Shown here: piece after piece, positions 21,801 through 55,450 of the stretch
Numbering within the stretch: the stretch's first letter is position 1
Layout: every line of letters starts with the position of its first letter
NCBI RefSeq assembly: GCF_000282655.1
Contig: NZ_AKIV01000148.1
Coordinates: 1-64,000, forward strand
DNA: 64,000 bases
Direction of reading: 5' to 3'
DNA from: Polaromonas sp. CF318
Lineage (GTDB): Bacteria; Pseudomonadota; Gammaproteobacteria; Burkholderiales; Burkholderiaceae_C
The notes under the pieces: generated by a model
The model's input: the letters and a program-made list of their open reading frames with translations, nothing else
Database searches by the model: none
Told to the model about the DNA's origin: nothing
Translations under genes and position numbers: made by a program

Positions 21801-21801
21801 C

Positions 21802-24800
21802 ATGCCAGCAGCCATAGGCACCGCCATCGCCACCTGGCTCGCCAGCATCACCGTCACCCAGGTGGTGTTCACTATTGCCTCTCTGGCCATCAGCAGCGCC
21901 ATGTCCAGCCGCGCGCAAAAGAAGGCAGAGGCCGCCCAACGCGCCGCCGCCGAACAGCAGCGCGCCGCCTATAACGCCGGGCTGGTTGACCGCACCAGCG
22001 TTCTGCGCACCGGCATCCAGCCGCGCAATATGATCCTGGGCCGCGACGAGGCCAGCGGCCCGCTGGTGTGCTGGTTCACCTACGGCCCGCTGCGCAACTT
22101 CCACGCCTTTGCCGTCGTGCTGGCTGGGCATGAGTGCGATGAAGTCGAGACCGTCATGTTCAACCATGAGCCCGTCACCCTCGACGGCAGTGGTGCGGTC
22201 GTTGCTCCAGACAAATATTTGCGAGTCGTCAGCCACAACTTCACCACGGCCTTCCCAGGTGGGCCAGCCGGAACCACTTGCGTATTGATCGACGCGCCCG
22301 CGCGGGTAGACTCTGTCCGCAGCTACCGCGATGGCGTTTACCTCAACACCATTGGCTACACCGTCGTCGGCAATGTACTCACCACCACGCAAGACGTTGA
22401 CCCGGACCCCGATGGCAACATCCTGGATCTGCAGGTCACATATACCGTCGTCGTTCGGCAGCCGCTTTTCTACATCAAGAAATACCTTGGTGCCCCAGGC
22501 CAGACCGCAGCGCCCGAGCTCATCGCTGCGGCGGCTCAGGCAGGTATCCCCACTGCATGGGACGCCACCCGCAAGGGAACCGGCATTTGCTACCTGACCT
22601 GCGTGGTCGAGGCCGACTTCAACGTCCTGGGCCAGATCGGCATTCCCAACCTTAGCGCGGTCACGCGCGGCGCCAAGGCCTACGACCCGCGTACCGGTCT
22701 GACAGCCTGGACGCAGAACCCCCCAGTCCTGGCCAGGTGGTTCAACGTCGACAGCGGCTTCGCGCCCAAGACGCTCTCCAGCGAGATCAACGCCGACGAG
22801 CTGCTGGCGAGCGCCAATGTGTCCGACGAGGCGGTTTCTTTCAGCGCCACTGAGGTCGGCGCCCGCTACACCTGCAATGGGCAACTCACATGCGCTGCCA
22901 CCCCGCTCGACAACTTCAACCACATCCTCGACGCCATGGACGGCGACGCCGTCTGGATCAGCGGCCAGTGGCAGATCGTTGCCGGCTACTACAAAGAGCC
23001 CACCCTCGACATTGACGAAGATACCCTGGACTCCGCCGCAATTTCGATCCTGCCGCGCACCGCCAAGCGCGACCTGTTCAACGGCATCAAGGGGCAGTTT
23101 GTCGACGCCTCGAACGGCTACATCCGCACGGGCTACGGCCTGATCACCAGTGACTTCTATAAGGCCCAGGACGGCGACGAATCGCTGCCGGCGGAAGCCA
23201 ACTTTGAGCTGGTAAACGACTCGCGCCGCTGTCAGATGATCGCCTGGCAGCGCCTCACGCGCGCCCGCCAGCCGCTGACGCTGCAGCTAGGCACCACGCT
23301 CAAGGGCTACGACAGCGCACCGCTGCAAACAATCAATGTCAACCTGCGCCGGCCTGGCTACGTCAACAAGGTCTTCACCAACCTGCGCCGTGAGCATGAC
23401 AAAAACACTCTGACATACACCCTGCAGGAGACCGGCCCCGAGGTGTGGGAGTGGGATTATTCCAAGGCAAGCGCGGCGGTGGACCTGCCGAACAGCAGTT
23501 TGCCTGACGCCATAACCATCCCCGTGGTGACCGACGTGGTAGCCGAGAGCGGCACAAACGTGCTGCAGCGTCTTGGAGATGGCACCATCATCAGCCGCGT
23601 GCGCCTGAGCTGGGCGGCCGTGACCAACATATATGTACTCAACGGCGGCAAGATCGAGTGGCAGCACAAGAGCGCCGCCGACACTTCAGACGACTGGGAA
23701 GTCTTGCCGCCGTCCCGTGGTGAAGATGTCGAGGCATTCACTGGCGCTCTGGTCGACGGCGATGTGAGGCTCTTCCGTGGCCGCTGCGTCACCATGCTGG
23801 GGCGCAAGGGCGACTGGTGCCCGCTGGTCGTGCATCGGGTGGTCGGCAAGACGGCACCACCGTCGGACGTTCTTTTTTTCACCATCAACGGAACGTCGCT
23901 AGCGTGGTCGGCTGTTACGGATGTCGATCTGGCCGGCTACCAGGTGCGCTTCAACTATTCGCAAAACAGGGCCTGGGGCACCGCCACGCCGTTGCACATT
24001 GGCCTCGTCACGGAATCCCCTTGGACCCCCGAGATTCTGCCGCCTGGTCAGGTCACGCTTTTGATAAAGGCGATAGACACGTCTGGCAACGAGAGCGCCA
24101 ATGCTGCCCCCATAGTTACTAATCTTGGCGATCCTATCGTTATTAACTTGATTGACGAGTATGACGACAAGGCCGCGGGCTTTCCTGGCGTCAAGGTTAA
24201 CGGCACCGTGAGTGGTGGCGACCTGGTAGCGGATGATTCCGGTGGACTGTTTTGGGGGCAAGACACCGGGAATTACTGGAAAGAGGACGCCGCTCTGGTC
24301 TGGCCTGGATCGACGTATCTGCAAATGGTCTACACGACCACCTACCGCGTGGGCGCAGATCAACGCGGCGCTCGTTTGACTCTACAGGTCGAAGTCGAAG
24401 GTGAGTCTTACACCATCGAGTACTGCTACACGACGCAAGGCCTCTACTGGGGGCCAGACGACGCCTATGCGTGGGGTGCAGATTCTGATCTGTATTGGCC
24501 CGCTGCTACCGATCGGGCAACCTGGCCAGGCGCAATCGAGAACATCTCCGAGGGAGATATCGAGCTGCGAATCACCACGCAGGCTGGCTCCGTTCGTGGC
24601 GCGATTCGTGAGCTGACTTTGCAGATCGATGTCGAGGACGAACTCGAATATGTGAACGATGCGGTCATTGCTGCGATCGGCACGCGCCTGCCCCTCACGA
24701 AGTCATTCCGTTCAATAAAAAACGTTCTGGTGACCTTGCAGGCGGCCCCTGGCGGAGCCGATAGCTACAAGGTGTTGGACAAGGTGGTGGCCGGCTCCTC

Positions 24801-24885
24801 CGGCCCTCTTATCGGGGTGTACGCCGCTGGCGTGGGCACCACAGGATTAATCGATGCCCAGATCCAGGGCGTGAAAGGAAACTAA
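21802..24885 (+). CDS. Tail tip attachment protein J (host specificity)
   Basis: A 1027-residue protein of the gpJ/central tail hub type. It begins with a hydrophobic stretch and an Ala/Gln-rich helix, then DRTSVLRTGIQPRNMILGRD, a motif typical of J-like hubs. The middle has fibronectin-like beta parts (VDLAGYQVRFNYSQNR), and the C-terminus is variable. It should form the tail needle and bind the receptor together with the fibre proteins that follow. Confidence 0.9.
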   Translation: MPAAIGTAIATWLASITVTQVVFTIASLAISSAMSSRAQKKAEAAQRAAAEQQRAAYNAGLVDRTSVLRTGIQPRNMILGRDEASGPLVCWFTYGPLRNFHAFAVVLAGHECDEVETVMFNHEPVTLDGSGAVVAPDKYLRVVSHNFTTAFPGGPAGTTCVLIDAPARVDSVRSYRDGVYLNTIGYTVVGNVLTTTQDVDPDPDGNILDLQVTYTVVVRQPLFYIKKYLGAPGQTAAPELIAAAAQAGIPTAWDATRKGTGICYLTCVVEADFNVLGQIGIPNLSAVTRGAKAYDPRTGLTAWTQNPPVLARWFNVDSGFAPKTLSSEINADELLASANVSDEAVSFSATEVGARYTCNGQLTCAATPLDNFNHILDAMDGDAVWISGQWQIVAGYYKEPTLDIDEDTLDSAAISILPRTAKRDLFNGIKGQFVDASNGYIRTGYGLITSDFYKAQDGDESLPAEANFELVNDSRRCQMIAWQRLTRARQPLTLQLGTTLKGYDSAPLQTINVNLRRPGYVNKVFTNLRREHDKNTLTYTLQETGPEVWEWDYSKASAAVDLPNSSLPDAITIPVVTDVVAESGTNVLQRLGDGTIISRVRLSWAAVTNIYVLNGGKIEWQHKSAADTSDDWEVLPPSRGEDVEAFTGALVDGDVRLFRGRCVTMLGRKGDWCPLVVHRVVGKTAPPSDVLFFTINGTSLAWSAVTDVDLAGYQVRFNYSQNRAWGTATPLHIGLVTESPWTPEILPPGQVTLLIKAIDTSGNESANAAPIVTNLGDPIVINLIDEYDDKAAGFPGVKVNGTVSGGDLVADDSGGLFWGQDTGNYWKEDAALVWPGSTYLQMVYTTTYRVGADQRGARLTLQVEVEGESYTIEYCYTTQGLYWGPDDAYAWGADSDLYWPAATDRATWPGAIENISEGDIELRITTQAGSVRGAIRELTLQIDVEDELEYVNDAVIAAIGTRLPLTKSFRSIKNVLVTLQAAPGGADSYKVLDKVVAGSSGPLIGVYAAGVGTTGLIDAQIQGVKGN

Positions 24886-24887
24886 AA

Positions 24888-26024
24888 ATGGCAGCAGTAC
24901 TTCCGACCTCGGCCGAAGTCACATCCGGCACTCAAACCAACGCGGAGCAGAAGGTTGACTTCGCCTCGATGCTTGATTTTCTTAAGGAGAATATCAACAA
25001 AGGAACCACCGGCGGCACCACGACGGCATACACCCTTACTTTGGTCCCGGCTCTAACGGTGCTTGAAGCGGGTCAGCGGTTCCGCGTCAAATTCAATGCG
25101 GCAAATTCCTCGACCACCCCGACGCTGAATGTTAACGGGCTCGGGGCTGTGTCGCTCAAGGTCTATGGTCCGAGTGGCGCGAAGGAGTTGCCCGCCGTGG
25201 GCGCATTCGCTGCCAGCATGCTCTGTAACGTCGAATACGACGGGACAGACTTCGTGGTGTTGAACCAATTGCCGCCTCCGGTGTTGCGGTCTTACCTGGC
25301 AGGGCTCACGTTGTCAAACAACGTGTCTGACGCCACCAACGACATCGACATCGCCTCCGGGATGGCTGCGGACAGTACCAACGCATACATGCTGTCGCTG
25401 ACAGGTCCATTCACTAAGCGGCTTGACGCGACCTTTGCCGCCGGCTCTGGGAATGGTGGACTTGACACCGGCTCACTGACAAACGCCATTTACCACGCGT
25501 TCCCGGTCCGTAAAGATTCAGACGGTTCTGTTGACGTCGTATTTTCGCTTTCGTCCACAGCTCCGACGATGCCGGCTGGATACACCCCGAAGCGTCGAAT
25601 TGGTTCGGTGTTGCGTGTTGGGGGGGTGATCCGCCCATTCATACAGGTCGGCGATAGGTTTTACTTCAAAACACCGACGCTTGACTATGAAACTACCTCT
25701 TTGGGGACGACGCCGGCAACGCCAACTCTTAACGTCCCACCGAATACGATTGCAATTTGCAATATCTACATCGAGCGCACGAGTGCCGCGATAGGTGTGT
25801 ACATCAATCCAACTGCTGCCACGTCGATGGCTGCAAGTGATACTGCCGCTCCTCTCACCACGCTGGAGACAGGTGCTCAGGGGGCTGGGTTAGTTCTAGC
25901 TTCCACTCAGATAGAGGTTCTCGTTGACGCGAGCAGCCAGATTCGGGTGGTCTCCAACGCCGGCTCCACTACCTTACGAATTGTTCCTATCGGGTATATC
26001 GACACACGCGGAAAGGACGCATAA
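24888..26024 (+). CDS. Tail fibre protein
   Basis: A 378-residue protein two bases after gene J. The N-terminal 50 residues (TSAEVTSGTQTNAEQKVDFA) are a likely tail-attachment segment. Repeated small beta units rich in Thr/Ala/Asn follow (NAANSSTTPTLNVNGLG), as in trimeric fibres. Base composition is less GC-rich than the head genes, which suggests recent exchange, as is usual for receptor-binding genes. Confidence 0.75.
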   Translation: MAAVLPTSAEVTSGTQTNAEQKVDFASMLDFLKENINKGTTGGTTTAYTLTLVPALTVLEAGQRFRVKFNAANSSTTPTLNVNGLGAVSLKVYGPSGAKELPAVGAFAASMLCNVEYDGTDFVVLNQLPPPVLRSYLAGLTLSNNVSDATNDIDIASGMAADSTNAYMLSLTGPFTKRLDATFAAGSGNGGLDTGSLTNAIYHAFPVRKDSDGSVDVVFSLSSTAPTMPAGYTPKRRIGSVLRVGGVIRPFIQVGDRFYFKTPTLDYETTSLGTTPATPTLNVPPNTIAICNIYIERTSAAIGVYINPTAATSMAASDTAAPLTTLETGAQGAGLVLASTQIEVLVDASSQIRVVSNAGSTTLRIVPIGYIDTRGKDA

Positions 26025-26026
26025 GA

Positions 26027-27139
26027 ATGATCGTCGCAAATATCTCCACCCTAAAATCTCTCACCGTAACGCCCAACTGCGAGGTGGATTTGCTCGGCTA
26101 TTTCACTCCGGGCGATGGCGGCGGAGGGCGCTTTTATTTTGATAGCGCAAGTGCTGCGGCAGACGACGGCGGAACGGTCATTGCCCCTACTTCAGGTTCG
26201 GGCCGCTGGAAGCGGATCTACTCCGGGGCGGTAAGTGTGGACTGGTTCGGCGCGACTGGCTCGGGTGATGTGTCAGCGGCTTTCGTCGCTGCATCAGTCT
26301 TTCCTGTTGTCGAATGTTCCGCCCGCACGTACCGTATGGACGGAACCATTGCCATCAAGGCAAACCAGCTTTGGGACTTCAAGGGCGCCACGATCACCCA
26401 CACCGACCCTAGCAAGAAGATGTTCACCGCCACCACTGTGGACGGCTGGACATTCCGTGGCCCTGTCGTCCTGAAGGGGTTGCTTGTCAGCTCTGGCGAC
26501 ACGGGCGCAGAGGAGGGGCTGGTTATCTCTGGCTGCAACAAATACCGCGTTTCCGAGGTCGGTGCCACCCTGTTTCAGACTGCCGGCATTCACATCGCCG
26601 CTGGACTGTTCGCCGGCTCAAAAGGAGACCAAGGACAGATCACCGACTGCTGGGGCACGGAAAACCGTGTGGGCCTGCTGATTGACAACGATTCGGCCGC
26701 CGAATACAACACGGTGAGCAACTTCAACGCATCGTGGAACATCACGGGCGTGCAAATAGGCGCCGGGAATACTATCTTCACTGGCGGCACGATCATCCAA
26801 AACACCTACGGCGTGAAGCTGGTTGGCGGCGGTAATAACGGCCACGGCATTTTTTCGGGCGTCAATATCAACCATAACGGAAACCACAACATCCTCGCTG
26901 ACGCCGTGACGAATGGCCACACCTTCATTGGTTGCCACATCTATGGCGACAGCTCATCGGCTGGGCTGGTGCGGTTTCAGAACGGATCGACAGACATCAG
27001 CATCACGGGCGGCGTGCTGGATGCGGCTGTTTACAACGACTCTGGCACAAACCGAGTCAGCAACAACAAGACTTACTCGCAGTTCTCTGTTGGTGGGGCG
27101 AACGCGGCAGGGCTGATCCAGTCCCCTGTCAATTTCTAA
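26027..27139 (+). CDS. Tailspike, parallel beta-helix, likely receptor-binding or depolymerase
   Basis: A 370-residue protein. The N-terminus has the short head-binding pattern GYFTPGDGGGGRFYFDSAS and GSGRWKRIYSG that many spikes share. From residue 70 on, short repeating beta strands (GLVISGCNKYRVSEV, GVQIGAGNTIFTGGTI, NGHTFIGCHIYGD) indicate a right-handed beta-helix like pectate lyase-type spikes. It may bind or cleave surface polysaccharide; active-site acids cannot be assigned by eye. Confidence 0.8.
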   Translation: MIVANISTLKSLTVTPNCEVDLLGYFTPGDGGGGRFYFDSASAAADDGGTVIAPTSGSGRWKRIYSGAVSVDWFGATGSGDVSAAFVAASVFPVVECSARTYRMDGTIAIKANQLWDFKGATITHTDPSKKMFTATTVDGWTFRGPVVLKGLLVSSGDTGAEEGLVISGCNKYRVSEVGATLFQTAGIHIAAGLFAGSKGDQGQITDCWGTENRVGLLIDNDSAAEYNTVSNFNASWNITGVQIGAGNTIFTGGTIIQNTYGVKLVGGGNNGHGIFSGVNINHNGNHNILADAVTNGHTFIGCHIYGDSSSAGLVRFQNGSTDISITGGVLDAAVYNDSGTNRVSNNKTYSQFSVGGANAAGLIQSPVNF

Positions 27140-42777: not shown

Positions 42778-43449
42778 TCAAGCGGTCTCGGGCTGGCTTT
42801 GCTGCAACATTCCCCGGGTTTCAATAAAGCTGATCACTTCGGCCAGGCCGGCCTGGGTTTTAAGGTTTGTCATTACAAATGGTTTCAAACCCTTGGCCGT
42901 AGTGCGCATGCGGATGGTGTCTTTTTTCATGACCTCGAGGTCGGCACCCACATAAGGTGCCAGGTCGGTCTTGTTGATCACAAACAAGTCGCTTTTTGTG
43001 ATACCGGGGCCGCCCTTGCGCGGAATCTTCTCGCCGGCCGCCACGTCGATCACATAAATCGTCAAATCGCTCAATTCGGGGCTGAAGGTGGCGGCCAGGT
43101 TGTCGCCGCCGGATTCAACGAATACGACGTCGGCATCGGGGAAATCCACCAGCATGCGGTCTATGGCCTCCAGGTTGATGGAAGCGTCTTCGCGGATCGC
43201 GGTATGCGGGCAGCCGCCGGTTTCCACGCCCATGATGCGTTCGGCCGCCAGCGCGCCGCTCACGGTCAGCAGGCGCTGGTCTTCCTTGGTGTAGATGTCG
43301 TTGGTGATCGCGACCAGGTCGTACCTGGCCTTCATGCTTTTGCACAGCATCTCGAGCAGCGTGGTCTTGCCGGAACCCACCGGGCCGCCTATGCCCACGC
43401 GCAGGGGCGGAAGTTTTTTGCTGCGGTTGGCGATGTGGTGCAAGCTCAT
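42778..43449 (-). CDS. ureG: Urease accessory GTPase UreG
   Basis: 223 residues from ATG 43449. P-loop [19 protein letters not shown], the nickel-binding Cys-Pro-His of [13 protein letters not shown], and guanine motif VINKTDLAP. UreG hydrolyses GTP to drive nickel insertion into urease together with UreE, UreF and UreD. It is the last gene of the leftward urease operon. Confidence 0.96.
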
Positions 43450-43483
43450 GGGCGTACCTTGAAAGAGGATGGTGTAAAGAGAG

Positions 43484-44200
43484 TCAGGAGCGGAACAGCC
43501 GCGAATACTGGGTTTCATGCCGGGCCGACAAAATCGCCAGCATGGGGGAAAAAGCCTGCCGCTCGCCGTCCGGCAGGCGCAACGCCGCTTCCACCGCGGG
43601 CGGTATGTCCCGGCTCAGCCGGGCCAGTATGCGCTGGCCGGCGCTCTGGCCCAGGGGCACGGACTTGATCGCGGCCTGCATCATGTTTTCGGCCCAGCCA
43701 AAAGCGTAGGCCAGCAGGCAGTCGCGCACACCGGCGGCGGTCTGCGAGGCCGCCAGCGCAAAGGCCACGGGGTAGGTGGGTTGCAGCGCGGCGCAGGCGT
43801 CGATGTGCATGGCGCTGGCCCCTTCATGGTTACGCAGCCATTCGAGCAGAGAGCGGCCCATCTGCTCGGTTTGGGCGCGCAGTTCGCTGGTCTCACGGGT
43901 TTGCAGCACCCAGGTGTTCAGGCCGGCGATGCGCTCCAGCTTGCCTTCGCGCCAGGCTGGAATGGCCTGGGCAATCACCGCCAGGTCGCCGCGGGCCAGG
44001 GCCAAATGGAGCTGGTCGCTGAGCCAGCTGGCGGCCTGGCTTTCCGTCGTGACTTCATCGCCCTCAACGGCGGCCTCCAGGCCCTCCGAATACGAGAAGC
44101 CGCCCACCGGCAGGGCAGGCGAGGCCAGCCAGATCAGCTGCAGCAGGCTGGATGCCGCAAGCTGTTCCAGAGGGGCTGCGGGCGTTGTCGGCGCGTCCAC
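43484..44200 (-). CDS. ureF: Urease accessory protein UreF
   Basis: 238 residues from a GTG at 44200, eight bp after the ureE stop. A longer in-frame extension would run through the ureE hexamer repeat and is an artefact. [18 protein letters not shown] and the helical middle ([23 protein letters not shown]) are typical. UreF binds UreD on apo-urease and controls UreG GTPase. Confidence 0.92.
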
Positions 44201-44207
44201 GGCGTGC

Positions 44208-44915
44208 CTAGTGGCTGTGGGGCTTGTGCTTGTGGACCTGGATGGCCACGGGCTTGGCTTCGTGCGCGTGGTCATGGTCATGGTCATGGTCATGGTCATG
44301 GTCATGGTCATGGTCATGGTCATGGTCATGGTCGTCATGGCCATGGTTGCAGCCTGGCCCGTGCACATGCGCTACCGGCGCGGCGGCTACGGCAGCAGGC
44401 GCATGGCTGTGTCCATGTCCGCCGTGGTCATGGCCATGGTCGTGAGCATGCCCATGGCCGCCCGAGCTGTAAGCGCCGCCCTCGGGTTCAAAGGCTTCTT
44501 CGGCCTCATTCACGATCAGGTGCATGGCGCGCAGCATGTCGGCCAGCACATGGTCGGGTTCTATCTTGAGGTGGTCGGGCTTGAGCTCTATGGGTACATG
44601 GCGGTTGCCCAGGTGGTAGGCCGCGCGCGTCAGGTCAAAAGGCGAGCCGTGCGAGGTGCAGGCGGTGATGCGCAGCACCGCCTGCGGCGCGGCGATCACC
44701 CTGACCATGGAACCATCTTCGGCCACCAGCACGTCGCCGCCGCGCACCAGCGTGCCGCGCGGCAGGAACACACCCAATTGGCGTCCCTGCGAGTCGGTCG
44801 CGTCAAAGCGGCTTTTCTGGCGCACGTCCCAGTCGAGCTCGACGGTGGCGGCGCGTTTGACGAGGACAGAGGCCAGGCCCGTGCCCTGGGAAATGACTTT
44901 GGAAACCTGAAGCAT
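44208..44915 (-). CDS. ureE: Urease nickel chaperone UreE with long His/Asp tail
   Basis: 235 residues. The N-terminal peptide-binding domain and middle metal-binding domain (LYNLG-type [14 protein letters not shown]) are normal. The C-terminal 90 residues are rich in His, Asp and Gly, including an (HD) run encoded by ten exact GTCATG repeats (44271-44330). Such tails store or buffer nickel. The length of the HD run may differ between strains. Confidence 0.94.
44271..44330. repeat. Perfect hexanucleotide repeat (GTCATG)x10 in ureE
   Basis: Ten uninterrupted copies of GTCATG on the plus strand; on the coding strand they read alternating His and Asp. Slippage by whole units changes tail length without a frameshift. 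Confidence 0.95.
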
Positions 44916-44949
44916 GAGGCCTTAAAAAAAGCAAAACCTGGAACAAGGT

Positions 44950-46668
44950 TTAAAAAAGGAAATAACGCTGCGTCATCGGCAGGCTGGTGGCCGGCTCGCA
45001 GCCCAGCAGCTGGCCGTCGGCCCGCACCAGGTAGGTCTGGGCATCGACTTCCATTTTGGGCAGGTAGGCATTGTGGACCATGTGCTGCTTGCGCACGCCG
45101 CGCACGTTTTTTACCGCGCTCAGGGTCTTGGCCAGGCCGAAGCGCTCCTTGATGCCGGCATTCAGGCCGGCCTGCGAGACAAAGGTCAGCGAGCCCCTGG
45201 CGATGGCACCGCCGAAGCCGCCGAACTGCGGGCGGTAGTGCACCGGCTGCGGCGTGGGGATGGAGGCGTTCGGGTCGCCCATGGCCGCCATGGCGATAAA
45301 ACCGCCCTTGAGGATGACCGAAGGCTTGATGCCGAAAAAGGCCGGTTTCCAGACCACCAGGTCGGCCCACTTGCCGGGTTCGACCGAGCCGACCTCGTGC
45401 GAGATGCCGTGGGCGATCGCCGGGTTGATGGTGTATTTGCTGATGTAGCGCTTGGCGCGGAAGTTGTCGTGGCGGTCCGTGTCGCCGGGCAGCTTGCCGC
45501 GCTGCAGTTTCATCTTGTGCGCAGTCTGCCAGGTGCGGATGATGACTTCGCCGACTCGGCCCATGGCCTGGCTGTCGGAGCTGAACATGCTGATCGCGCC
45601 CAGGTCGTGCAGCACGTCCTCGGCCGCGATGGTTTCCTTGCGGATACGGCTTTCGGCAAAAGCCAGGTCCTCGGCAATGCCGGCGTCCAGGTGGTGGCAC
45701 ACCATCAGCATGTCGACGTGCTCGTCCAGCGTGTTGACGGTGTAGGGCATGGTCGGGTTGGTGGAGGAGGGCAGGAAGTTCTCCTCGCCCACCACGCGCA
45801 GGATGTCGGGCGCATGGCCGCCGCCCGCGCCCTCGGTGTGGAAGGCGCAGAGGCTGCGGCCCTTGGTCGCGGCAATCGTGTTCTCGACGAATCCGGATTC
45901 ATTGAGCGTGTCGCTGTGGATGGCAACCTGGGTGTCGGTGGCTTCGGCCACGTCCAGGCAATTGCTGATGGCCGCCGGCGTGGTGCCCCAGTCCTCGTGC
46001 AACTTCAGGCCTATGACGCCGGCGTTGATCTGCTCGTGCAGCGCGGCGGGCAGGCTGGCATTGCCCTTGCCGAGGAAGCCCAGGTTCATGGGGAAGGCGT
46101 CTGCCGCCTGCAGCATGCGTTCGATGTTCCAGGGGCCGGGCGTGCAGGTGGTGGCGAAGGTGCCGGTGGCCGGGCCGGTGCCTCCGCCCAGCATGGTGGT
46201 GATGCCCGAGGTCAGCGCTTCCTCGATCTGCTGCGGGCAGATGAAATGGATGTGCGAGTCGATGCCGCCGGCGGTGACGATCATGCCTTCGCAGCTGATG
46301 ATCTCGGTGCCGGGACCAATGATCATGTCGACGCCGGGCTGGGTATCGGGGTTGCCGGCCTTGCCGATGGCCGCGATGCGCCCGCCCTTGAGGCCTATGT
46401 CGGCCTTGACGATGCCCCAGTGGTCGATGATGAGGGCGTTCGTCATCACGCAGTCCATGGCGCCTTCGGCCCGCGTCTTTTGCGACTGGGCCATGCCGTC
46501 GCGAATCGTCTTGCCGCCGCCGAACTTGACTTCCTCGCCGTAGCTGCCGGCGCGCAAGGTGTAGTCGGCCTCGACTTCGACCAGCAGCTCGGTGTCGGCC
46601 AGGCGCAGGCGGTCCCCAACCGTGGGGCCGAACATTTCCGCGTAGGCGCGGCGTCCTATGGTTGCCAT
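44950..46668 (-). CDS. ureC: Urease alpha subunit UreC
   Basis: 572 residues, full length. Nickel-binding [14 protein letters not shown], carbamylated Lys in [14 protein letters not shown], flap and active-site [10 protein letters not shown]. It forms the active site that splits urea into ammonia and carbamate. The start directly abuts the ureB stop. Confidence 0.98.
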
Positions 46669-46974
46669 TTAGAGTTTTCCTTGGATCAGGCCGCGAAAGC
46701 CATAGACGTTTCGTTCACCCGCGAATTCCACGAGTTCCACCGTCCGCTGCTGGCCCGGCTCAAAACGCACGGCCGTGCCCGAAGCGATGTTCAGCCGCAT
46801 GCCGCGCGCCGCGTCGCGGTCAAATCCGAGCGCGCCGTTGGTTTCGGCAAAGTGGTAATGCGAGCCGACTTGAATAGGGCGGTCTGCCGTGTTTTGCACA
46901 ACGACAGTCAGCGTGCGCCGGCCCGCGTTGAGCACATGGTCGGGTCCGTCGGTGATCAGTTCTCCCGGAATCAT
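46669..46974 (-). CDS. ureB: Urease beta subunit UreB
   Basis: 101 residues. [19 protein letters not shown] at the start, then [11 protein letters not shown] and [16 protein letters not shown]. Normal length and sequence for the separate beta subunit of bacterial urease. It stands between hupE/ureJ and ureC. Confidence 0.97.
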
Positions 46975-46983
46975 GGTGCCTCC

Positions 46984-47601
46984 TCAGGCCAGCCGGGCCA
47001 GCAGGGTCACGCCAAAGACGGCGACGGCTGCACCGGCCGCGCGCGGCAGCCAGGCGCTTGCGCCGCGCAGCGCCCAGCCGGCACCCAGTCCCACCAGGTG
47101 CAGCAGCGCGGTGGCGGCCAGCATGCCCGACAAGGTCGCCCAGGCGCTGGGGGACCCGGCCAGTTCACCACCGTGGGCCAGGCCGTGGAAGACGGCGAAC
47201 GCGCCGACGATGAGTGCGGCCGCGATGCCGGGCACATGCCAGCGCGTCACGACCAGCAGGCCGGTGACCAGCAGCGAGGCCGCAATCATGGGCTCGACCG
47301 CCGGGGTCTGCACACCTTGCAGGCCCAGCAGCGCGCCCGCCAGCAACATGCCGGCAAAGCCCAGCGGGCCCCATAGGAGCTCAGGGCCGGCGCGGCGCGC
47401 GGCCAGCGCGCTCCACAGGCCCACGGCCACCATGGCCGCCAGGTGGTCCATACCGGTCAGCGGGTGCACAAAGCCGCTGAAAAAATCCAGGTGCGTGTGC
47501 CCGTCCACGCCGGTGTGCGCGAAGGCCGCCGCGGGCAGCAAGGCCGCCAGGGCCAGCAGGGCGCGCAGGCTCCGGGATGAAGGCAGGGTGGAAAAACTCA
47601 C
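46984..47601 (-). CDS. ureJ: HupE/UreJ nickel transporter
   Basis: 205 residues from a GTG at 47601, preceded by AGGAGATC. Signal-like N-terminus ending PAAAFAHTGVDGHTH, then FVHPLTGMDHLAAMVAVGLW, the HupE/UreJ motif with His and Asp, and about six membrane helices. It should bring nickel into the cell for urease. Between ureA and ureB, as in other Comamonadaceae. Confidence 0.9.
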   Translation of the reverse strand: MSFSTLPSSRSLRALLALAALLPAAAFAHTGVDGHTHLDFFSGFVHPLTGMDHLAAMVAVGLWSALAARRAGPELLWGPLGFAGMLLAGALLGLQGVQTPAVEPMIAASLLVTGLLVVTRWHVPGIAAALIVGAFAVFHGLAHGGELAGSPSAWATLSGMLAATALLHLVGLGAGWALRGASAWLPRAAGAAVAVFGVTLLARLA

Positions 47602-47655
47602 GGCGATCTCCTGTTGGGCGGGTGTTGTTGTACTTAAACGGAAAGCGGGCGGCAC

Positions 47656-47958
47656 TCAGACAATGGGCTGGTGCACGGTGACCAGCTTGGTTCCGTCGGG
47701 AAAGGTCGCTTCGACCTGGATGTCGGGGATCAGCTCGGGAATGCCGTCCATCACGTCGGCGCGGGTCAGCACGGTGCGGCCCTCGCTCATCAGCTGGGCG
47801 ACGGACTTGCCGTCGCGCGCGCCTTCCATGACGGCGGCGCTGATCAGCGCCACGGACTCGGGGTAGTTGAGCTTGAGGCCGCGGGCGCGGCGCCTTTCGG
47901 CCAGCAGGGCAGCCGTAAAAATAAGCAGCTTGTCTTTTTCGCGGGGCGTCAATTCCAT
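47656..47958 (-). CDS. ureA: Urease gamma subunit UreA
   Basis: 100 residues, normal length. [38 protein letters not shown] and [18 protein letters not shown] are conserved. It is the first gene of the operon here; ureD, which usually lies upstream, is not present. A perfect sigma-54 promoter lies 47-62 bp upstream. Confidence 0.98.
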
Positions 47959-48004: not shown

Positions 48005-48020
48005 TGCAAGAATGGTGCCA
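48005..48020 (-). promoter_or_regulatory. Sigma-54 promoter of the urease operon
   Basis: On the minus strand TGGCAC-CATTC-TTGCA matches the -24/-12 consensus (TGGCAC-N5-TTGCW) at every fixed base. The expected start is near 47994, giving a leader of about 36 bases before ureA. It implies RpoN and an enhancer-binding protein such as NtrC. Confidence 0.82.
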
Positions 48021-48066: not shown

Positions 48067-48082
48067 TGGCACAGAACATGCA
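48067..48082 (+). promoter_or_regulatory. Near-consensus sigma-54 promoter of the transporter-kinase gene
   Basis: TGGCAC-AGAAC-ATGCA has one mismatch to the -24/-12 consensus. The expected start is near 48093, 35 bases before the ATG at 48128. It is divergent from the ureA promoter, with 46 bp between the two elements; no clear NtrC dyad is seen there. Confidence 0.65.
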
Positions 48083-48127: not shown

Positions 48128-51100
48128 ATGGACGCCCCGCCCACGCCCCTGCAGCCGCCCTTGCCGCCCGAAGCGGCAGTGGCCGCGCCTGTGGCGGCCG
48201 AAGCACCGCCGCTGCAGCGCATCATCAAGGTCAGGCGCGACTACAACAGCTGGGTCGCCAGCGAAACCATGGAAGACTACGCGCTGCGCTTTACGCCGCA
48301 GCGTTTTCGCAAGTGGTCGGAATGGCGGGTCGCCAACACCGCCTTTGGCGCGGCCTCTTTTTTGATCCTCGAGGCGGTGGGCGCCACCTTGCTGGTCAAG
48401 TACGGCTTCACCAATGCTTTCTGGGCCATCGTCGCCACCGGCCTCATCATTTTCCTGGCCGGCCTGCCCATCAGCATTTACGCGGCGCGCTACGGCGTGG
48501 ACATGGACCTGCTCACGCGCGGCGCTGGCTTCGGCTACATAGGCTCGACGCTGACCTCGCTGATCTACGCCTCGTTCACCTTCATCTTTTTTGCGCTGGA
48601 GGCGGCCGTCATGGCCTATGCGCTGGACCTGGCCCTTGGCATCCCGCCCAGCTGGGGCTATCTGGTCTGCGCGCTGGTGGTGATTCCCCTGGTCACCCAC
48701 GGCGTGTCCGTGATCTCGCGCCTGCAGGTCTGGACCCAGCCCTTGTGGCTGGTCATGCTGGTCGTGCCCTTTGTGTTTGTGCTGCTGCGCGATCCTGGTG
48801 CTTTTTCAGGTGTTCTGCACTATGGCGGTGAGAAGGGTGTGGGCGGCGAGTTTGATCTGCACCTGTTTGGTGCCGCCTTGACCGTGGGCATTGCGCTGAT
48901 TACCCAGATGGGCGAGCAGGCCGACTATTTGCGCTTCATGCCGGTGCAGACGCCGGCCAGGCGCTGGCGCTGGTGGGGCGGCGTGCTGGCCGGCGGGCCG
49001 GGCTGGGTCTTCCTGGGTGTGGTGAAGATGCTGGGTGGCGCCTTCCTGGCCTACCTGGCGATTTCCAACATGGTGCCGCTGGACCGCGCGGTGGACCCGA
49101 ACCAGATGTACCTCGCGGCCTATGAGTACGTGTTCCCGCACTACGGCATGGCCGTGGCTGCGACCGCGCTTTTCGTCGTGGTGTCGCAGCTCAAGATCAA
49201 CGTCACCAACGCCTATGCCGGCTCGCTGGCCTGGTCGAATTTTTTCTCGCGCATCACGCACAGCCATCCGGGCCGTGTGGTGTGGGTCGTGTTCAACACG
49301 CTGATCGCCTTCATGCTGATGGAGATGAACGTCTTCCAGGCGCTGGGCGACGTGCTGGGCCTGTACTCCAACATCGCCATCGCCTGGGTCATGGCCGTGG
49401 TGGCCGACCTGGTCATCAACAAGCCGCTGGGCCTGAGCCCGCCGGGCATAGAGTTCAAGCGCGCGCACCTCTACGACATCAACCCGGTCGGCGTGGGCGC
49501 CATGGCCCTGGCCTCGGCGCTGTCGATCACGGCGCACCTGGGGCTGTACGGTGAAATGGCGCAGGCCTTCTCGGCCGTGATCGCCATGGGCACGGCCTTT
49601 GTCACGGCGCCCTTGATCGCCTGGGCCACCAAGGGCCGCTACTACATAGCCCGCGGCCCGGCCGTGGCGGCCGGCGAGGGCGCCTACAAACCTTATGCGC
49701 TGCAGCAGTGCGTGATCTGCGAGCGCGCCTACGAAGGCCCGGACATGGCCCACTGCCCGGCCTACCAGGGGCCCATCTGCTCGCTGTGCTGCACGCTGGA
49801 TGCGCGCTGCGGCGACCTGTGCAAGCCGCACGCGAGCCTGTCGGCGCAATGGTCGGGCGCGCTGCGCTGGCTGCTGCCGCGCCGCGCCTGGCCTTACCTG
49901 GACACCGGCCTGGGCCACTTCCTGCTGCTGATGCTGATCATCGTGCCGCTGCTGGCCAGTGTGTTCGGCCTGCTTTACCACCAGGAGATCAGCGCGCTGT
50001 CGGACTTCACGCCCTCGGAGCCGGCCTTGAAGTCGGGCTTTCTGAAGGCCTATATGGCGCTGCTGGTGATCGCCGGCCTGGTTGCCTGGTGGCTGGTGCT
50101 GGCGCACAAGAGCCGGCAGGTGGCGCAGGAGGAATCGAACCGCCAGACACATTTGCTGATGCGCGAGATCGAGTCGCACCGCCAGACCGACGAGGCGCTG
50201 CAACAGGCCAAGCGTGTGGCCGAAGAGGCGCGCCACCATGCCGACCAGGCCAACCAGGCCAAGAGCCGCTACATCAGCGCCATCAGCCACGAACTGCGCA
50301 CGCCGCTCAACAGCATCCTGGGTTATGCGCAGCTCATGGGCGAAGACAGCGCGATACCGCCGCACCGCAAGCAGGCCGTCAGCGTCATCAAGCGCGGCGG
50401 CGAGCACCTGCTGTCGCTGATCGAAGGCACGCTGGACATCGCCCGCATCGAGGCCGGCAAGCTCACGCTCAACGTCAAGCCCATGCATTTCGCCGATTGT
50501 GTGCACGAGATGGCCGGCATGTTTGAGCTGCAGGCCGCGGCCAAGGGCCTGGCCTTTCACTTCGAGGCCAGCGGCAACCTGCCCGAGCTGGTGCGCGCCG
50601 ACGAAAAACGCGTGCGCCAGATACTCATCAACCTGCTGGGCAATGCCATCAAGTTCACGGTGCAGGGGCAGGTGACTTTCCGGCTGCGCCATGCGCGCGA
50701 GATGGCCTACATCGACATCGAGGACACCGGCCCCGGCATGCGCGAAGCCGAGCTCGCGCGCATCTTCGAGCCCTTCGCGCGCGGTGCCGCGGCGGGCCAG
50801 AGCGCCGAAGGCACGCCGGGCGCCGGCCTGGGCCTGACGATTGCCAAGATGCTGACCGACCTGATGGGCGGCGAGATGACGGTGGTCAGCACGCCGGGCC
50901 AGGGTTCCATCTTCCGCATACGGCTGTTCCTGCCCGAGGTGCACCTGCCGGCGGGCGCCGCCAAAGAGGCCGCCGTCGTGCCGGCGCGGCGCCGGCCGCG
51001 CGGCTACGAGGGCCCGCGCCGCAAGCTACTGGTGGTCGACAACGAGGAGCCCGACCGCGAACTGCTGGTGCAGCTATTGCAGCCCATGGGTTTTGAGCTG

Positions 51101-51655
51101 CGCACCGCCGCCAGCGGCCACGACTGCCTGGACCTGCTGGCCGCCGGCTATCAGCCCGACGTGATCTTCATGGACCTGGCCATGCCGGGCATAGACGGCT
51201 GGGAAACGCTGCGCCGTGTGCGCGGCTCCGGGCATGGGGACATCCACCTGGCCATCGTCTCGGCCAACGCCTTTGACAAGGGCATGGAGAACGACGCCGG
51301 CATTCTTCCCGAAGACTTCATCTTGAAGCCCGTGCGCCACACCGAGCTGATCGCCTGGCTGGAGCGGCGCCTGTCGCTCACCTGGCGCTATGACGAGCCG
51401 GCCGAGGAGGCTTCGCCCGCGGCCGTACCCCCGCGGCGCGTGCTGCCGGACGCTTCACAGCTGGCCGCGCTGCAGGAGGTGGTCAGCCTGGGCTTTTACC
51501 GGGGCATCATGAACATGCTGGCGGAGATAGAACGGCAGCAGCCCGACACCGCCGCCTTTGTCGAAGACATGCGCGTGCTGGCGCGGCAGTTCCAGTTCGA
51601 GGCCATGGGCCGCCAGCTCGCCAACCAGGAGGCCAGCCATGAGCAGCGTGCTTGA
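48128..51655 (+). CDS. Transporter-histidine kinase-receiver fusion (NCS1-permease-like sensor)
   Basis: 1175 residues. Residues about 50-510 form a 12-helix permease resembling NCS1 purine/cytosine carriers (GVDMDLLTRGAGFGYIGSTL, KINVTNAYAGSLAWSNFF). A Cys-rich cluster follows at 528-570 (CVICERAYEG, ICSLCCTLDARCGDLCKP), probably zinc-binding. Two more helices and a coiled coil lead to the kinase (SHELRTPLNSI, His about 721; NLLGNAIKF; DTGPGM) and a receiver domain (FMDLAMPG, Asp about 1016). It may sense a nitrogen compound while carrying it. Divergent from urease genes; coupled to the next response regulator. Confidence 0.88.
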   Translation: MDAPPTPLQPPLPPEAAVAAPVAAEAPPLQRIIKVRRDYNSWVASETMEDYALRFTPQRFRKWSEWRVANTAFGAASFLILEAVGATLLVKYGFTNAFWAIVATGLIIFLAGLPISIYAARYGVDMDLLTRGAGFGYIGSTLTSLIYASFTFIFFALEAAVMAYALDLALGIPPSWGYLVCALVVIPLVTHGVSVISRLQVWTQPLWLVMLVVPFVFVLLRDPGAFSGVLHYGGEKGVGGEFDLHLFGAALTVGIALITQMGEQADYLRFMPVQTPARRWRWWGGVLAGGPGWVFLGVVKMLGGAFLAYLAISNMVPLDRAVDPNQMYLAAYEYVFPHYGMAVAATALFVVVSQLKINVTNAYAGSLAWSNFFSRITHSHPGRVVWVVFNTLIAFMLMEMNVFQALGDVLGLYSNIAIAWVMAVVADLVINKPLGLSPPGIEFKRAHLYDINPVGVGAMALASALSITAHLGLYGEMAQAFSAVIAMGTAFVTAPLIAWATKGRYYIARGPAVAAGEGAYKPYALQQCVICERAYEGPDMAHCPAYQGPICSLCCTLDARCGDLCKPHASLSAQWSGALRWLLPRRAWPYLDTGLGHFLLLMLIIVPLLASVFGLLYHQEISALSDFTPSEPALKSGFLKAYMALLVIAGLVAWWLVLAHKSRQVAQEESNRQTHLLMREIESHRQTDEALQQAKRVAEEARHHADQANQAKSRYISAISHELRTPLNSILGYAQLMGEDSAIPPHRKQAVSVIKRGGEHLLSLIEGTLDIARIEAGKLTLNVKPMHFADCVHEMAGMFELQAAAKGLAFHFEASGNLPELVRADEKRVRQILINLLGNAIKFTVQGQVTFRLRHAREMAYIDIEDTGPGMREAELARIFEPFARGAAAGQSAEGTPGAGLGLTIAKMLTDLMGGEMTVVSTPGQGSIFRIRLFLPEVHLPAGAAKEAAVVPARRRPRGYEGPRRKLLVVDNEEPDRELLVQLLQPMGFELRTAASGHDCLDLLAAGYQPDVIFMDLAMPGIDGWETLRRVRGSGHGDIHLAIVSANAFDKGMENDAGILPEDFILKPVRHTELIAWLERRLSLTWRYDEPAEEASPAAVPPRRVLPDASQLAALQEVVSLGFYRGIMNMLAEIERQQPDTAAFVEDMRVLARQFQFEAMGRQLANQEASHEQRA

Positions 51656-52688
51656 AGAATCTCCCCTGCTCAATCGCAGCCTGGACCGCACGCTGGACCG
51701 GGCCAACAGCGACGTCGTGCTCATCGTGGATGACGTGCCAGACAACCTCTCGGTGCTGCACGACGCGCTCGATGAATCGGGCTATACCGTGCTGGTGGCC
51801 ACCAGCGGCGAGGCCGCCCTGCAGCGCGCACTGCAGGCCAGGCCCGACATCGTGCTGCTGGATGCGATGATGCCGGGCATGGACGGTTTTGAAGTCGCCA
51901 AGCGCCTCAAGGCCATGGCCGAGACCGCCCACATCCCCATTATCTTCATGACGGGCCTGACCGAAACCGAGCACCTGGTGGCCGCGCTGGAGGCCGGCGG
52001 CGTCGACTATGTGACCAAGCCCATCAAACCCAAGGAAGTCATGGCGCGCATGGGCGTGCATCTGCAGGGCGCGCGTCGCGCCCGCCAGGAGGCGCGCCAG
52101 GCCGGCCAGGCGCGCAACGCGCTGGACGCCTTCGGTTATGCCAGCATCACGGTGCGCATGGGCGGCGCGGCCGACGGCCGGCTGATCTGGCAGACGCCGC
52201 TGGCGCGCGAGCTCTTGATGCGCTACTACGGCACGTCGGCGCCGCAAACACCCGAGCCGGTGCTGGCCTGGCTGCGCAGCCACCTGGCGGACGCCGAGCG
52301 CCAGGTCGAGCCGCCGCGCCTGGCGGTGGAAATGGGGCCGCGCCGGCTGACCTTCCGGCTGCACCAGCAGACCGGCGACGGCGGCGAAAGCGGCGACGCC
52401 GCCGGCCGGGGCGACTGGCTGATCGTGATGCGCGAGATTTCCGACGATGCGGTGGTCGAGGCCATGAGCCTGAGCTTCAAACTCACCGCCCGCGAGGCCG
52501 AGGTGCTGTACTGGGTGGTCAAGGGCAAGACCAATCGCGACATCGGCGATATCCTGGGCTCCAGCCCGGCCACCGTCAAAAAGCACCTGGAACGGGTCTA
52601 TGCCAAGCTGGGCGTGGAAACCCGCACCGCCGCCGCGGGCATGGCCATGAACCGCATCCGCCAGCTGCACCCTCAGTTTGAGGGCTGA
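51639..52688 (+). CDS. LuxR-type response regulator
   Basis: 349 residues from ATG 51639, which lies inside the end of the kinase gene and is preceded by AGGAGG. Receiver domain at 25-145 with VLIVDDVPDN, LLDAMMPGMDGF (phospho-Asp) and TKPIKP; a 110-residue middle part; C-terminal LuxR HTH (LTAREAEVLYWVVKGKTNRD, ATVKKHLERVYAKLGV). It should be the output of the transporter-kinase and control transcription, possibly of the urease operon next door. Confidence 0.92.
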   Translation: MSSVLEESPLLNRSLDRTLDRANSDVVLIVDDVPDNLSVLHDALDESGYTVLVATSGEAALQRALQARPDIVLLDAMMPGMDGFEVAKRLKAMAETAHIPIIFMTGLTETEHLVAALEAGGVDYVTKPIKPKEVMARMGVHLQGARRARQEARQAGQARNALDAFGYASITVRMGGAADGRLIWQTPLARELLMRYYGTSAPQTPEPVLAWLRSHLADAERQVEPPRLAVEMGPRRLTFRLHQQTGDGGESGDAAGRGDWLIVMREISDDAVVEAMSLSFKLTAREAEVLYWVVKGKTNRDIGDILGSSPATVKKHLERVYAKLGVETRTAAAGMAMNRIRQLHPQFEG

Positions 52689-53961: not shown

Positions 53962-55317
53962 TCAGCGGCGGCCGGTTGCCATGTGCTCGGTCTTCTTGTT
54001 GATCAGCACCTCGGGCTCCTGGGCCTCGACCCAGCTCTCGTTGTTGAGCCCGGCCTTGAGCCTTTCGGTGTCCAGGTCATTCGTCCATTTGGCGACCACG
54101 ATGGTGGCCACGCCGTTGCCGATCAGGTTGGTCAGCGCACGCGCCTCCGACATGAAGCGGTCTATGCCCAGGATCAGCGCCAGCCCCGCCACGGGCACGG
54201 TGCCCACGGCCGACAGCGTGGCGGCCAGCACGATGAAGCCGCTGCCGGTGATGCCGGCCGCACCCTTGGAGGTCAGCAGCAGCACCGCCAGCAACGTGAG
54301 CTCCTGCGTGAGCGTCATCGGCGTGTTGGTGGCCTGTGCGATAAACATCGCCGCCATCGTGAGGTAGATGGAGGTGCCGTCCAGGTTGAAGGAGTAGCCG
54401 GTCGGGATCACCAGGCCCACGGTGGTCTTTTTCGCGCCCAGGTTCTCCATCTTTTCCATCATGCGCGGCAGCACCGATTCGGATGAGGACGTGCCCAGCA
54501 CGATCAGCAGCTCTTCCTTGATGTATTTGATGAACTTCCAGATGCTGAAGCCGTGCGCGCGCGCGATGGCGCCCAGCACCACGAAGATGAAGATCAGGCA
54601 GGTCGCGTAGAAGGCGGCCATCAGCTTGCCCAGCGACACCAGGCTGTCCACGCCGTAAGCGCCTATGGTGAAGGCCATGGCGCCGAACGCGCCTATGGGC
54701 GCCACCTTCATGATGAAACCGACGATGGTGAACAGCACGTGCGAGGTTTTTTCGACGAAGTCGAACACCAGCGTGCCGCGCCCGCCGAAGCGGTGCAGCG
54801 CGAAGCCGAACATCACCGCGATCAGCAGCACCTGCAAAATCTCGCCCTTGGCGAAGGCGTCCACCACGGTGGACGGGATGATGTTCATGATGAAGTCGGT
54901 GGTGCCGACCATCTTGCCGGGGCCGGTATAGGCCGCGATGGCCTTGGTGTCCAGCGTGGACACGTCGACATTCATGCCCTGGCCCGGCTTGAACACATTG
55001 ACCAGCACCAATCCGATGATCAGCGCGAAGGTGCTGACGATCTCAAAGTAAAGCAGCGCCAGGCCGCCGGTCTTGCCGACCTTCTTCATGTCCTCCATGC
55101 CGGCGATGCCGATCACGACGGTGCAGAAGATGATGGGTGCGATCATCATCTTGATGAGCTTGATGAAGCCGTCGCCCAGCGGCTTCATGAGCTTGCCGGC
55201 CTCGGGGTAGAAATGCCCCAGCAGCACGCCGGCGATGACCGCGCAGATCACCTGGAAGTACAGCGATTTGTAAAGGGGCGGCTTGCGCTTGCTTGTCTCT
55301 GTTGTCGTTGTTGTCAT
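53962..55317 (-). CDS. dctA: C4-dicarboxylate:cation symporter DctA
   Basis: 451 residues from ATG 55317. DAACS-family motifs: [31 protein letters not shown] (serine-rich hairpin), [21 protein letters not shown] and [19 protein letters not shown]. It takes up succinate, fumarate and malate with cations. No adjacent dctBD genes are seen in this window. Confidence 0.95.
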
Positions 55318-55366
55318 GGCCGGGAGGCGCCAGGTTGCGCGCTGTGGTGTGGTGATCGGGTCATCA

Positions 55367-55394
55367 AATATAGTCCCGCCACACGATTTGTCCA
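55367..55394 (-). promoter_or_regulatory. Sigma-70-type promoter of dctA
   Basis: On the minus strand TGGACA (55389-55394), a 16-bp spacer and TATATT (55367-55372), giving a leader of about 45 bases. No -24/-12 element is seen, unlike rhizobial dctA genes. Confidence 0.55.
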
Positions 55395-55450
55395 TGTGGG
55401 AAACCACAGATCACAAACCTTTACGCGGCCGCCGTGCGCGGCCCGAAAAC

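Follow-up and report, generated by a model that had tools for sequence, protein, structure and literature searches.

Architecture and distribution of the fusion

We analyzed a 64,000-nucleotide stretch of DNA (the window) from the draft genome of Polaromonas sp. CF318, contig NZ_AKIV01000148.1, in which a gene for a membrane carrier fused to a hybrid histidine kinase lies divergent from ureA, across a gap of 169 bases, and overlaps the gene of a LuxR/NarL-type response regulator (Table 1). The frame of the fusion is open from its ATG to the stop at 51655, with a TTG at 47867 as the mechanical upstream limit. All kinase motifs are present, namely the H-box with His721, the N-box, the G1 and G2 boxes and the aspartate motif of the receiver, giving the full set of a hybrid histidine kinase (HisKA with its histidine, HATPase, and a receiver with its aspartate). 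The regulator, whose likely ATG at 51639 gives a 17-nucleotide overlap with the kinase stop, combines a receiver with a GerE helix-turn-helix, as a NarL/LuxR-type protein does. An initial annotation, made from the sequence alone, had proposed both the permease–Cys cluster–histidine kinase–receiver fusion and a LuxR-type regulator starting within the end of the kinase gene, and both readings hold. Pfam matches HisKA, HATPase_c and Response_reg in the open frame, and the conservation of the fusion over its full length across Proteobacteria rules out a chance arrangement and confirms that it is a real gene architecture.

Table 1. Features of the window at the fusion gene, its regulator and the urease genes
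Feature	Coordinates	Strand	Basis
Carrier – 8-Cys domain – two transmembrane helices – HisKA – HATPase – receiver fusion, 1175 residues	48128..51655	+	open frame, Pfam domains
NCS1-like carrier domain, ~residues 28-511	48209..49660	+	hhalign profile comparison, invariant residues
8-Cys domain (Cys 528, 531, 543, 551, 554, 555, 561, 565)	49709..49822	+	8 Cys in 70/70 members
Two further membrane helices, ~residues 599-615 and 636-654	49922..50089	+	hydropathy averaged over 70 sequences
HisKA, phospho-acceptor His721	50258..50458	+	Pfam PF00512 (E 9e-17), motif position
HATPase_c	50600..50932	+	Pfam PF02518 (E 1.5e-26)
C-terminal receiver of hybrid kinase	51029..51358	+	Pfam PF00072 (E 1.7e-15)
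LuxR/NarL-type response regulator, 349 residues	51639..52688	+	Pfam Response_reg and GerE
Sigma54-type -24/-12 promoter towards the fusion, TGGCAC-N5-ATGCA	48067..48082	+	67/75 family loci
Sigma54-type promoter towards ureA, TGGCAC-N5-TTGCA	48005..48020	-	62/75 family loci
ureA, divergent neighbor	47656..47958	-	relative in 72/80 loci; same gene order annotated in Mitsuaria
Rest of urease operon after ureA, without ureD	42778..47655	-	
HupE/UreJ	46984-47655	-	HupE_UreJ match
ureB	46669-46974	-	order and similarity
ureC	44950-46668	-	order and similarity
ureE	44208-44915	-	order and similarity
ureF	about 43484-44368	-	order and similarity
ureG	42778-43518	-	TIGR00101

Relatives are encoded by at least 579 of 594 pattern matches in genome contigs, and the best 80 of these at least 579 relatives make up our set of close loci; one of them, L002 from Polaromonas sp. 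JS666, matches the carrier stretch of the window at 99%. The fusion occurs in 66 of 399 sampled genomes of the order and in 53 of 398 of the phylum, the two samples sharing genomes, and 90 diverse loci were taken from order and phylum together. The window and 69 of these 90 form the 70-row alignment (A2) used below. A relative of the regulator is present in 75 of the 80 close loci and directly follows the fusion in 76 of the 90 diverse ones. Among plasmid records, 539 of 72,556 match the carrier, 342 of them from Klebsiella; the 25 Klebsiella rows in the spread list of matches cover the full query at about 46.5% identity. Current annotation of the fusion is generic ('ATP-binding protein', 'hybrid sensor histidine kinase').

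The carrier domain and its coupling region

The carrier domain has no NCBIfam match and a single Pfam match at chance level. Of the 30 Pfam families met in the 70 fusion members at E up to 1, 25 were listed; PF02133 is not one of these, and DUF6526 is the most frequent (14 members, best E 0.0044). No carrier came up in the PDB, whether it was searched with the sequence or with the 70-row profile, and comparison with one single NCS1 sequence gave no match and was replaced by a seven-row NCS1 profile. Against that profile, the 70-fusion profile gave a probability of 97.9% (hhalign, E 4e-13, 352 columns), compared with 15.7% for an SSF profile and 0.1% for an NCS2 profile; between themselves, the SSF and NCS1 profiles reach 81.3%. 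The three profiles were built from 7 of 7 NCS1, 15 of 21 SSF (after a length filter) and 18 of 25 NCS2 loci. A distant kinase-less relative (L224, 497 residues, 29% identical) does match PF02133, at 36.4 bits with a cut-off of 23.5. On these comparisons the most fitting label for the carrier is a divergent NCS1-like subfamily, which upholds the resemblance to NCS1 seen initially, and an SSF/SLC5 identity, as in the carrier–kinases CbrA and CrbS, was rejected at its 15.7%. In a Streptomyces relative (L305:3938-5920, 25% identical) the carrier is followed by an SCP2 domain, and genes for a nitrohydrolase and a molybdopterin enzyme lie nearby; going by this context, the wider subfamily may not be confined to urea. 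The initial view of a complete 12-helix carrier stands in part. Twelve helices are plausible from hydropathy, although segments merge in the plot, and the AlphaFold model of the carrier and Cys part, made with a view to a LeuT-type fold, is poor, with a predicted local distance difference test score (pLDDT) of 45.7.

To place the substrate site, we aligned the fusion with an intermediate sequence (L229) and that sequence with Mhp1. In this two-step alignment E158 falls at Gln121 of Mhp1, N361 at Asn318, K356 at Ser312 and Phe or Leu154 at Trp117; Q260 falls near Trp220, a less certain placement because of an alignment gap there. Seven pocket residues, E158, Q260, E263, Q264, K356, N358 and N361, are identical in all 70 fusions, in both clades of their tree, and are also kept in all 12 stand-alone (kinase-less) relatives compared. 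Loss of substrate-site residues throughout the homologues, the finding that would have refuted the initial proposal of a nitrogen-compound sensor, is not what the alignment gives, though the aromatic sandwich of NCS1 carriers (Trp117/Trp220) is gone: position 154 is Phe in 61 of 70 sequences and Leu in 9. Because the polar residues are kept and base stacking is lost, the pocket appears suited to a small amide. A filter for clade-specific residues telling urea from formamide copies was passed by one site only (position 80, Val versus Ala), and separate specificities for the two therefore cannot be read from the alignment.

The Na2-site Ser/Thr pair of the eighth transmembrane helix (Ser312/Thr313 in Mhp1) is replaced in 70 of 70 fusions by Lys356 and Ile or Val357. 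The sodium-site residues of Mhp1 we take to be Ala309, Ser312 and Thr313, and the Na2-site lysine of CbrA presumably comes from another helix than Lys356 does here. Sodium ligands of CodB were taken from the literature (PMC9379551), and a lysine at the Na2 site is described for CbrA (Lys196) and for other proton-coupled carriers (PMC13022988). The first transmembrane helix separates the two forms of the carrier: fusions have Phe78 (68 of 70) and Glu82 (70 of 70), and stand-alone proteins have Tyr78 with Phe or Gln82 (12 of 12).

Between carrier and kinase the initial annotation had noticed a Cys-rich cluster and two extra helices, and both recur throughout the family, with all eight cysteines invariant in the 70 aligned fusions. 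Stand-alone proteins of Acinetobacter, Klebsiella and Moraxella have Cys 528, 531, 551 and 554 only; that of Methylovirgula also has eight, and those of Arthrobacter and Tsukamurella retain a single one. A model of the 183-residue stretch with the cysteines and two helices reached a pLDDT of 79.2 and returned no Foldseek match with E<0.001, with weak RING/FYVE-like chains among the matches listed. A cross-brace metal domain in which the second site accompanies the kinase form would fit the cysteine pattern. The block of carrier, 8-Cys domain and two helices is also joined, as judged by eye, to other transmitters (L182, L185, L221, L222, L181 and L184): kinases of ~885-945 residues without a receiver, and proteins of ~1400 residues with receivers and a phosphotransfer-like end.

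Gene neighborhoods, stand-alone permeases and promoter sites

The urease neighborhood noted initially is conserved among close relatives, with ureA in 72 of the 80 close loci; of the eight without it, two (L015, L018) start at a contig edge. Within ~10 kb, urea or amide genes accompany 79 of the 90 diverse loci, by type urt-type ATP-binding cassette (ABC) genes in 67, fmdA in 56, amiE in 27 and urease in 21. A common order is amiE-fmdA-urtEDCBA followed by the divergent kinase and regulator. The window's own genome carries a second fusion copy facing urtABCDE-fmdA-amiE, and proteins representing this second locus score above the NCBIfam cut-offs as UrtA-E, formamidase FmdA and aliphatic amidase; some of the more distant cluster members could be related transporters. 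In the tree, a window clade of 18 rows (urease, urt, no such genes, some fmd) stands beside a larger, mostly fmd clade of 52 rows, and urease linkage recurs in other clades with other gene orders. Annotated plasmid loci of Burkholderia, Mitsuaria (urease), Klebsiella and Sinorhizobium agree with these arrangements. In the Klebsiella case (L302) a 46.5% identical fusion and its regulator face urtABCDE-amiF on an IncFIB/IncFII conjugative plasmid.

Carriers of the same subfamily also occur without a kinase, 41-54% identical to the window carrier. Plasmid matches to the stand-alone permease were followed through 25 of 535 records, part of which were opened (A. lwoffii, A. johnsonii, A. baumannii, Klebsiella, Moraxella, Streptomyces, Arthrobacter, Tsukamurella and Methylovirgula). 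The permease gene adjoins ureEFGJDABC in Acinetobacter lwoffii and A. johnsonii, comes after the urease genes in Klebsiella, where at least two plasmid records besides the 25 fusion rows have the stand-alone form, and lies within the urease cluster of genome G1046. In Moraxella and Tsukamurella its neighbor is fmdA. The Methylovirgula copy lies between kinase-regulator and amidase, and the A. baumannii copy diverges from a kinase fusion. In genome G1032 the permease gene takes the place of the ABC genes, between the kinase, from which it diverges, and fmdA-amiE; tblastn for urt genes found none in 20 kb there. None of the urease, formamidase, amidase or kinase genes was seen at the Streptomyces (L308) and Arthrobacter (L309) loci or on one short contig (L318). 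With two Acinetobacter plasmid copies counted as one, 8 of 11 opened stand-alone loci sit with urease, formamidase/amidase or a kinase. That the same carrier is found beside the same enzymes, both as a free permease and as part of a putative sensor, is the strongest argument for the class of ligand.

Two other explanations of the carrier were weighed. It could report a breakdown product of purines or pyrimidines (allantoin, hydantoin or a nucleobase), as classical NCS1 carriers would suggest by homology and as part of the initial annotation proposed; 'allantoin permease' and 'cytosine permease' are indeed database labels on stand-alone relatives, here found beside urease or formamidase. Yet in place of the Trp117 and Trp220 sandwich of Mhp1 the fusions have Phe or Leu154 and, in our alignment, Gln260, and no uricase, allantoin or other purine-catabolic gene was recognized among the neighbor clusters, of which some were annotated and which were not searched specifically for such genes. 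We set this explanation aside as very improbable; of the co-occurrence proposed with urease, uricase or allantoin genes, the urease part is what the neighborhoods bear out. Alternatively, in line with the sensing by transport suggested initially, the fusion might be chiefly a urea/amide transporter whose flux sets kinase activity, rather than a sensor by binding. Going by sequence, no part of its carrier is missing, and the positions that match the substrate and Na2 sites of Mhp1 hold invariant residues; one of them is Lys356, and a Na2-site lysine occurs in CbrA and other proton-coupled carriers as well (PMC13022988). However, uptake genes lie next door in 67 of the 90 loci, the differences at residues 78 and 82 are as expected from an altered transport cycle, and a CrbS/CbrA chimera, as its authors read it, signaled without cognate transport, with the conclusion that CbrA signaling does not require transport of the substrate (PMC5715377). 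We regard a flux sensor as unlikely, and a binding sensor that may or may not retain transport as the better account.

Promoter regions were compared in a set of 171 (80 close loci, 90 diverse loci and the window), from which 21 without the anchor motif and 2 with <450 bases upstream were dropped, leaving 148. Sigma54-type sites face the fusion in 67 of 75 close loci, against 3.7 in shuffled sequence, and face ureA in 62 of 75, against 3.8. In the diverse set they occur in 42 of 73 loci towards the fusion and in 9 of 73 on the opposite side, against about 3.4. These putative promoters suggest nitrogen control of the locus.

At the kinase-facing promoters of formamidase-type loci there is, in addition, an 18-bp palindrome, ATACGTC-N4-GACGTAT. 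Its core dyad TACG-N8-CGTA occurs in 35 of 48 such loci, the best shuffled dyad reaching 13; at least 11 of the 14 positions match in 31 of 48 (0 of 240 shuffles), and at least 10 in 40 of 48 (25 of 240). We searched five chosen whole genomes, the window's own (G000) and four with fmd-type loci, and found 16 sites with at most one mismatch, 8 of them at the cluster: 1 of 1 in G000, 2 of 2 in G025, 2 of 2 in G559, 2 of 4 in G283 and 1 of 7 in G138. A reversed control pattern gave 4 to 13 matches per genome. Exact palindromes lie at the cluster in five cases of five, and the search of the window's own genome returned no exact site. Among individual sites, an exact palindrome lies 58 bases before an amiE gene and ~10 kb from the kinase in G283, another lies just before the aligned fmdA start in G559, and a 12-of-14 site lies by urtA in Sinorhizobium, three genes separating it from the kinase. 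Exact copies face the kinase on the Burkholderia plasmid pBVIE02 and in G1032, in the latter between the stand-alone permease and the kinase. On the urease side, a variant core matches at 11 or 12 of 12 positions in 32 of 81 loci, compared with 8 of 405 shuffles; the window is not among them.

Candidate function and relation to known systems

The reading we favor, with a probability of about 0.72, is that the fusion senses urea and short-chain amides at the membrane, that it arose from a urea/amide permease within the divergent NCS1-like subfamily, and that it controls uptake and hydrolysis genes by way of its regulator. Urea or a short-chain amide would bind in the carrier pocket, and the resulting conformational change would reach the histidine kinase and receiver by way of the 8-Cys domain and the two extra helices. 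A phosphorelay through His721 would deliver phosphate to the product of the overlapping gene, the LuxR-type regulator, which may then bind the palindrome in the divergent promoter region and activate genes for uptake (urt-type ABC or a stand-alone permease) and hydrolysis (urease, formamidase, amidase). Because both the kinase gene and ureA have sigma54-type promoters in the window's lineage, nitrogen limitation would probably act there as a second input. The nitrogen-compound signal suggested initially is thus kept and widened: the gene context argues strongly for it and makes urea a good candidate, formamide and acetamide are added by the neighborhoods (56 of 90 loci have fmdA nearby and 21 have urease), and the purine breakdown product found no support.

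The sequence itself shows the architecture, the invariant pocket positions and cysteines, the gene linkage, the palindrome with its location and the sigma54-type sites; the ligand, the phosphotransfer partner, the regulator's binding to the palindrome, the coupling route and any remaining transport by the fusion are inferred. Several points weigh against this reading. Eleven of the 90 diverse loci have no urea or amide genes within ~10 kb, six of them in the window's 18-row clade, and the neighbor labels are those of sequence clusters, each checked against NCBIfam through one representative. The loci that yielded the palindrome consensus are also those in which its matches were counted, and related loci among them do not count as independent; six of seven sites in G138 and two of four in G283 lie away from the cluster. 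Between ureA and the fusion in the window there is no recognizable palindrome (best 8 of 14; relaxed core 9 of 12), and the variant form is limited to the 32 of 81 urease-side loci. LuxR-type regulators are not known to serve as sigma54 activators themselves, which leaves the action of this one at the sigma54-type ureA promoter unexplained. Finally, ammonia is the common product of urease and formamidase and could be the signal.

Two further alternatives were considered. In the first, the sensor would respond to ammonia/ammonium or to the general nitrogen state, the carrier being a modified ammonium pocket or a mere membrane anchor. Release of ammonia by urease and by formamidase/amidase alike, the tie to nitrogen control through the sigma54-type promoters and a pocket identical in both tree clades, as a shared ligand would need, all speak for it; the same pocket, though, is present in stand-alone permeases of urease and formamidase clusters, where it makes sense in substrate importers, and urea and formamide are similar enough in shape for one pocket. 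An ammonia sensor is, in our estimate, distinctly unlikely. In the second, the link to urease would be mere neighborhood, with the kinase of the window clade controlling another target and the divergent promoter region shared by chance or ancestry. This would account for the lack of a clear regulator palindrome in the window and for ureA having a sigma54-type promoter of its own, but not readily for ureA in 72 of 80 close loci, for urease linkage re-appearing in other clades with other gene orders, or for the variant palindrome, present at 32 of 81 urease-side loci and in 8 of 405 shuffles. We consider it improbable.

Elsewhere in the window, the urease operon itself lacks ureD, and UreD has no match in this draft genome. 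The JS666 genome, source of L002, has a UreD match on contig C7, apparently apart from its urease locus; ureD seems not to be linked to the operon, and an assembly gap probably hides it here. The C-terminus of UreE is a long His/Asp-rich repeat tail (44208-44368), and since the same bases read as a Met-Thr repeat in the overlapping ureF-frame open reading frame, the start listed for ureF is probably set too far upstream. Beyond the regulator, at 53962-55407 on the minus strand, lies a DctA-type C4-dicarboxylate carrier gene with a relative in 5 of the 80 close loci. Positions 17904-27139 hold plus-strand open reading frames of 765, 1027, 378 and 370 residues without an NCBIfam match at 0.001.

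Carrier–histidine kinase fusions are known as a kind from CbrA and CrbS; what differs here is the carrier family, the coupling region and, as we infer it, the ligand. CbrA of Pseudomonas likewise joins a full carrier to a histidine kinase, has a lysine at the Na2 position, has a nutrient as candidate signal and leaves import to a dedicated protein encoded elsewhere, HutT (PMC13022988). It differs in having an SLC5 carrier of 13 helices, STAC and PAS domains and the sigma54-dependent partner CbrB, and its trigger is still called elusive (PMC13022988). Our fusion has instead an NCS1-like carrier, an 8-Cys domain with two extra helices, a receiver and a LuxR-type partner; the differences from CbrA pointed out initially, in carrier family, Cys region and urease neighborhood, are all borne out. 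CrbS/CrbR is closer in its output, as a carrier–kinase hybrid with a LuxR-family regulator acting through an inverted repeat upstream of utilization genes, but it is an acetate system with an SLC5-STAC sensor and an ACTU motif (PMC5715377). Where CbrA and CrbS place STAC between carrier and kinase, the fusion has the 8-Cys domain and two hydrophobic helices. With Mhp1 and CodB (PMC9379551, PMC4195764) it shares homology at the level of profiles over 352 columns and the Asn of the eighth transmembrane helix; unlike them it has no PF02133 match or aromatic sandwich, carries Lys/Ile for the Na2 Ser/Thr, and is fused to a kinase.

An urt-like cluster by fmdA/amiE in B. japonicum has been proposed as an amide carrier (PMC3098086). 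Acetamide and formamide support growth of P. veronii Yu15, whose amiE-fmdA-fmdB-urtABCDE cluster is described as lacking amiC/amiR (PMC13209695); this behavior agrees with the proposed mechanism, though the strain has a second amidase operon too. Elsewhere, a LuxR-family two-component regulator is reported with a separate urtABCDE operon, the kinase appearing in a figure legend and no function being given in the part available (PMC13296017). For the Fmd system of Methylophilus methylotrophus (fmdCABDEF), the available part of a review mentions a putative positive regulator and names no sensor kinase. Our literature search, which reached few subscription journals, recognized no paper describing the fusion as a urea or amide sensor.

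A more tentative proposal, to which we give somewhat less than even odds, concerns the origin of the system. The unnamed NCS1-like subfamily would consist of secondary urea/short-amide permeases that were turned into a direct amide sensor by addition of a kinase, of four cysteines (543, 555, 561 and 565) and of two changes in the first transmembrane helix (Tyr to Phe78, Phe/Gln to Glu82). One family would then supply both importer and receptor of the same regulon, with the metal sites as a mechanical or metal-sensitive link.

The studied carrier–kinase fusions that we met in the literature, CbrA and CrbS, use SLC5 carriers, and the present fusion uses a different family. Kinase-less counterparts with the same pocket residues let transport and sensing be compared directly. 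The system proposed here names a candidate regulator, DNA site and ligand class for the urea, formamidase and amidase genes of many Proteobacteria, including rhizobia and Klebsiella plasmids, and may answer how urea and amide nitrogen genes are switched on.

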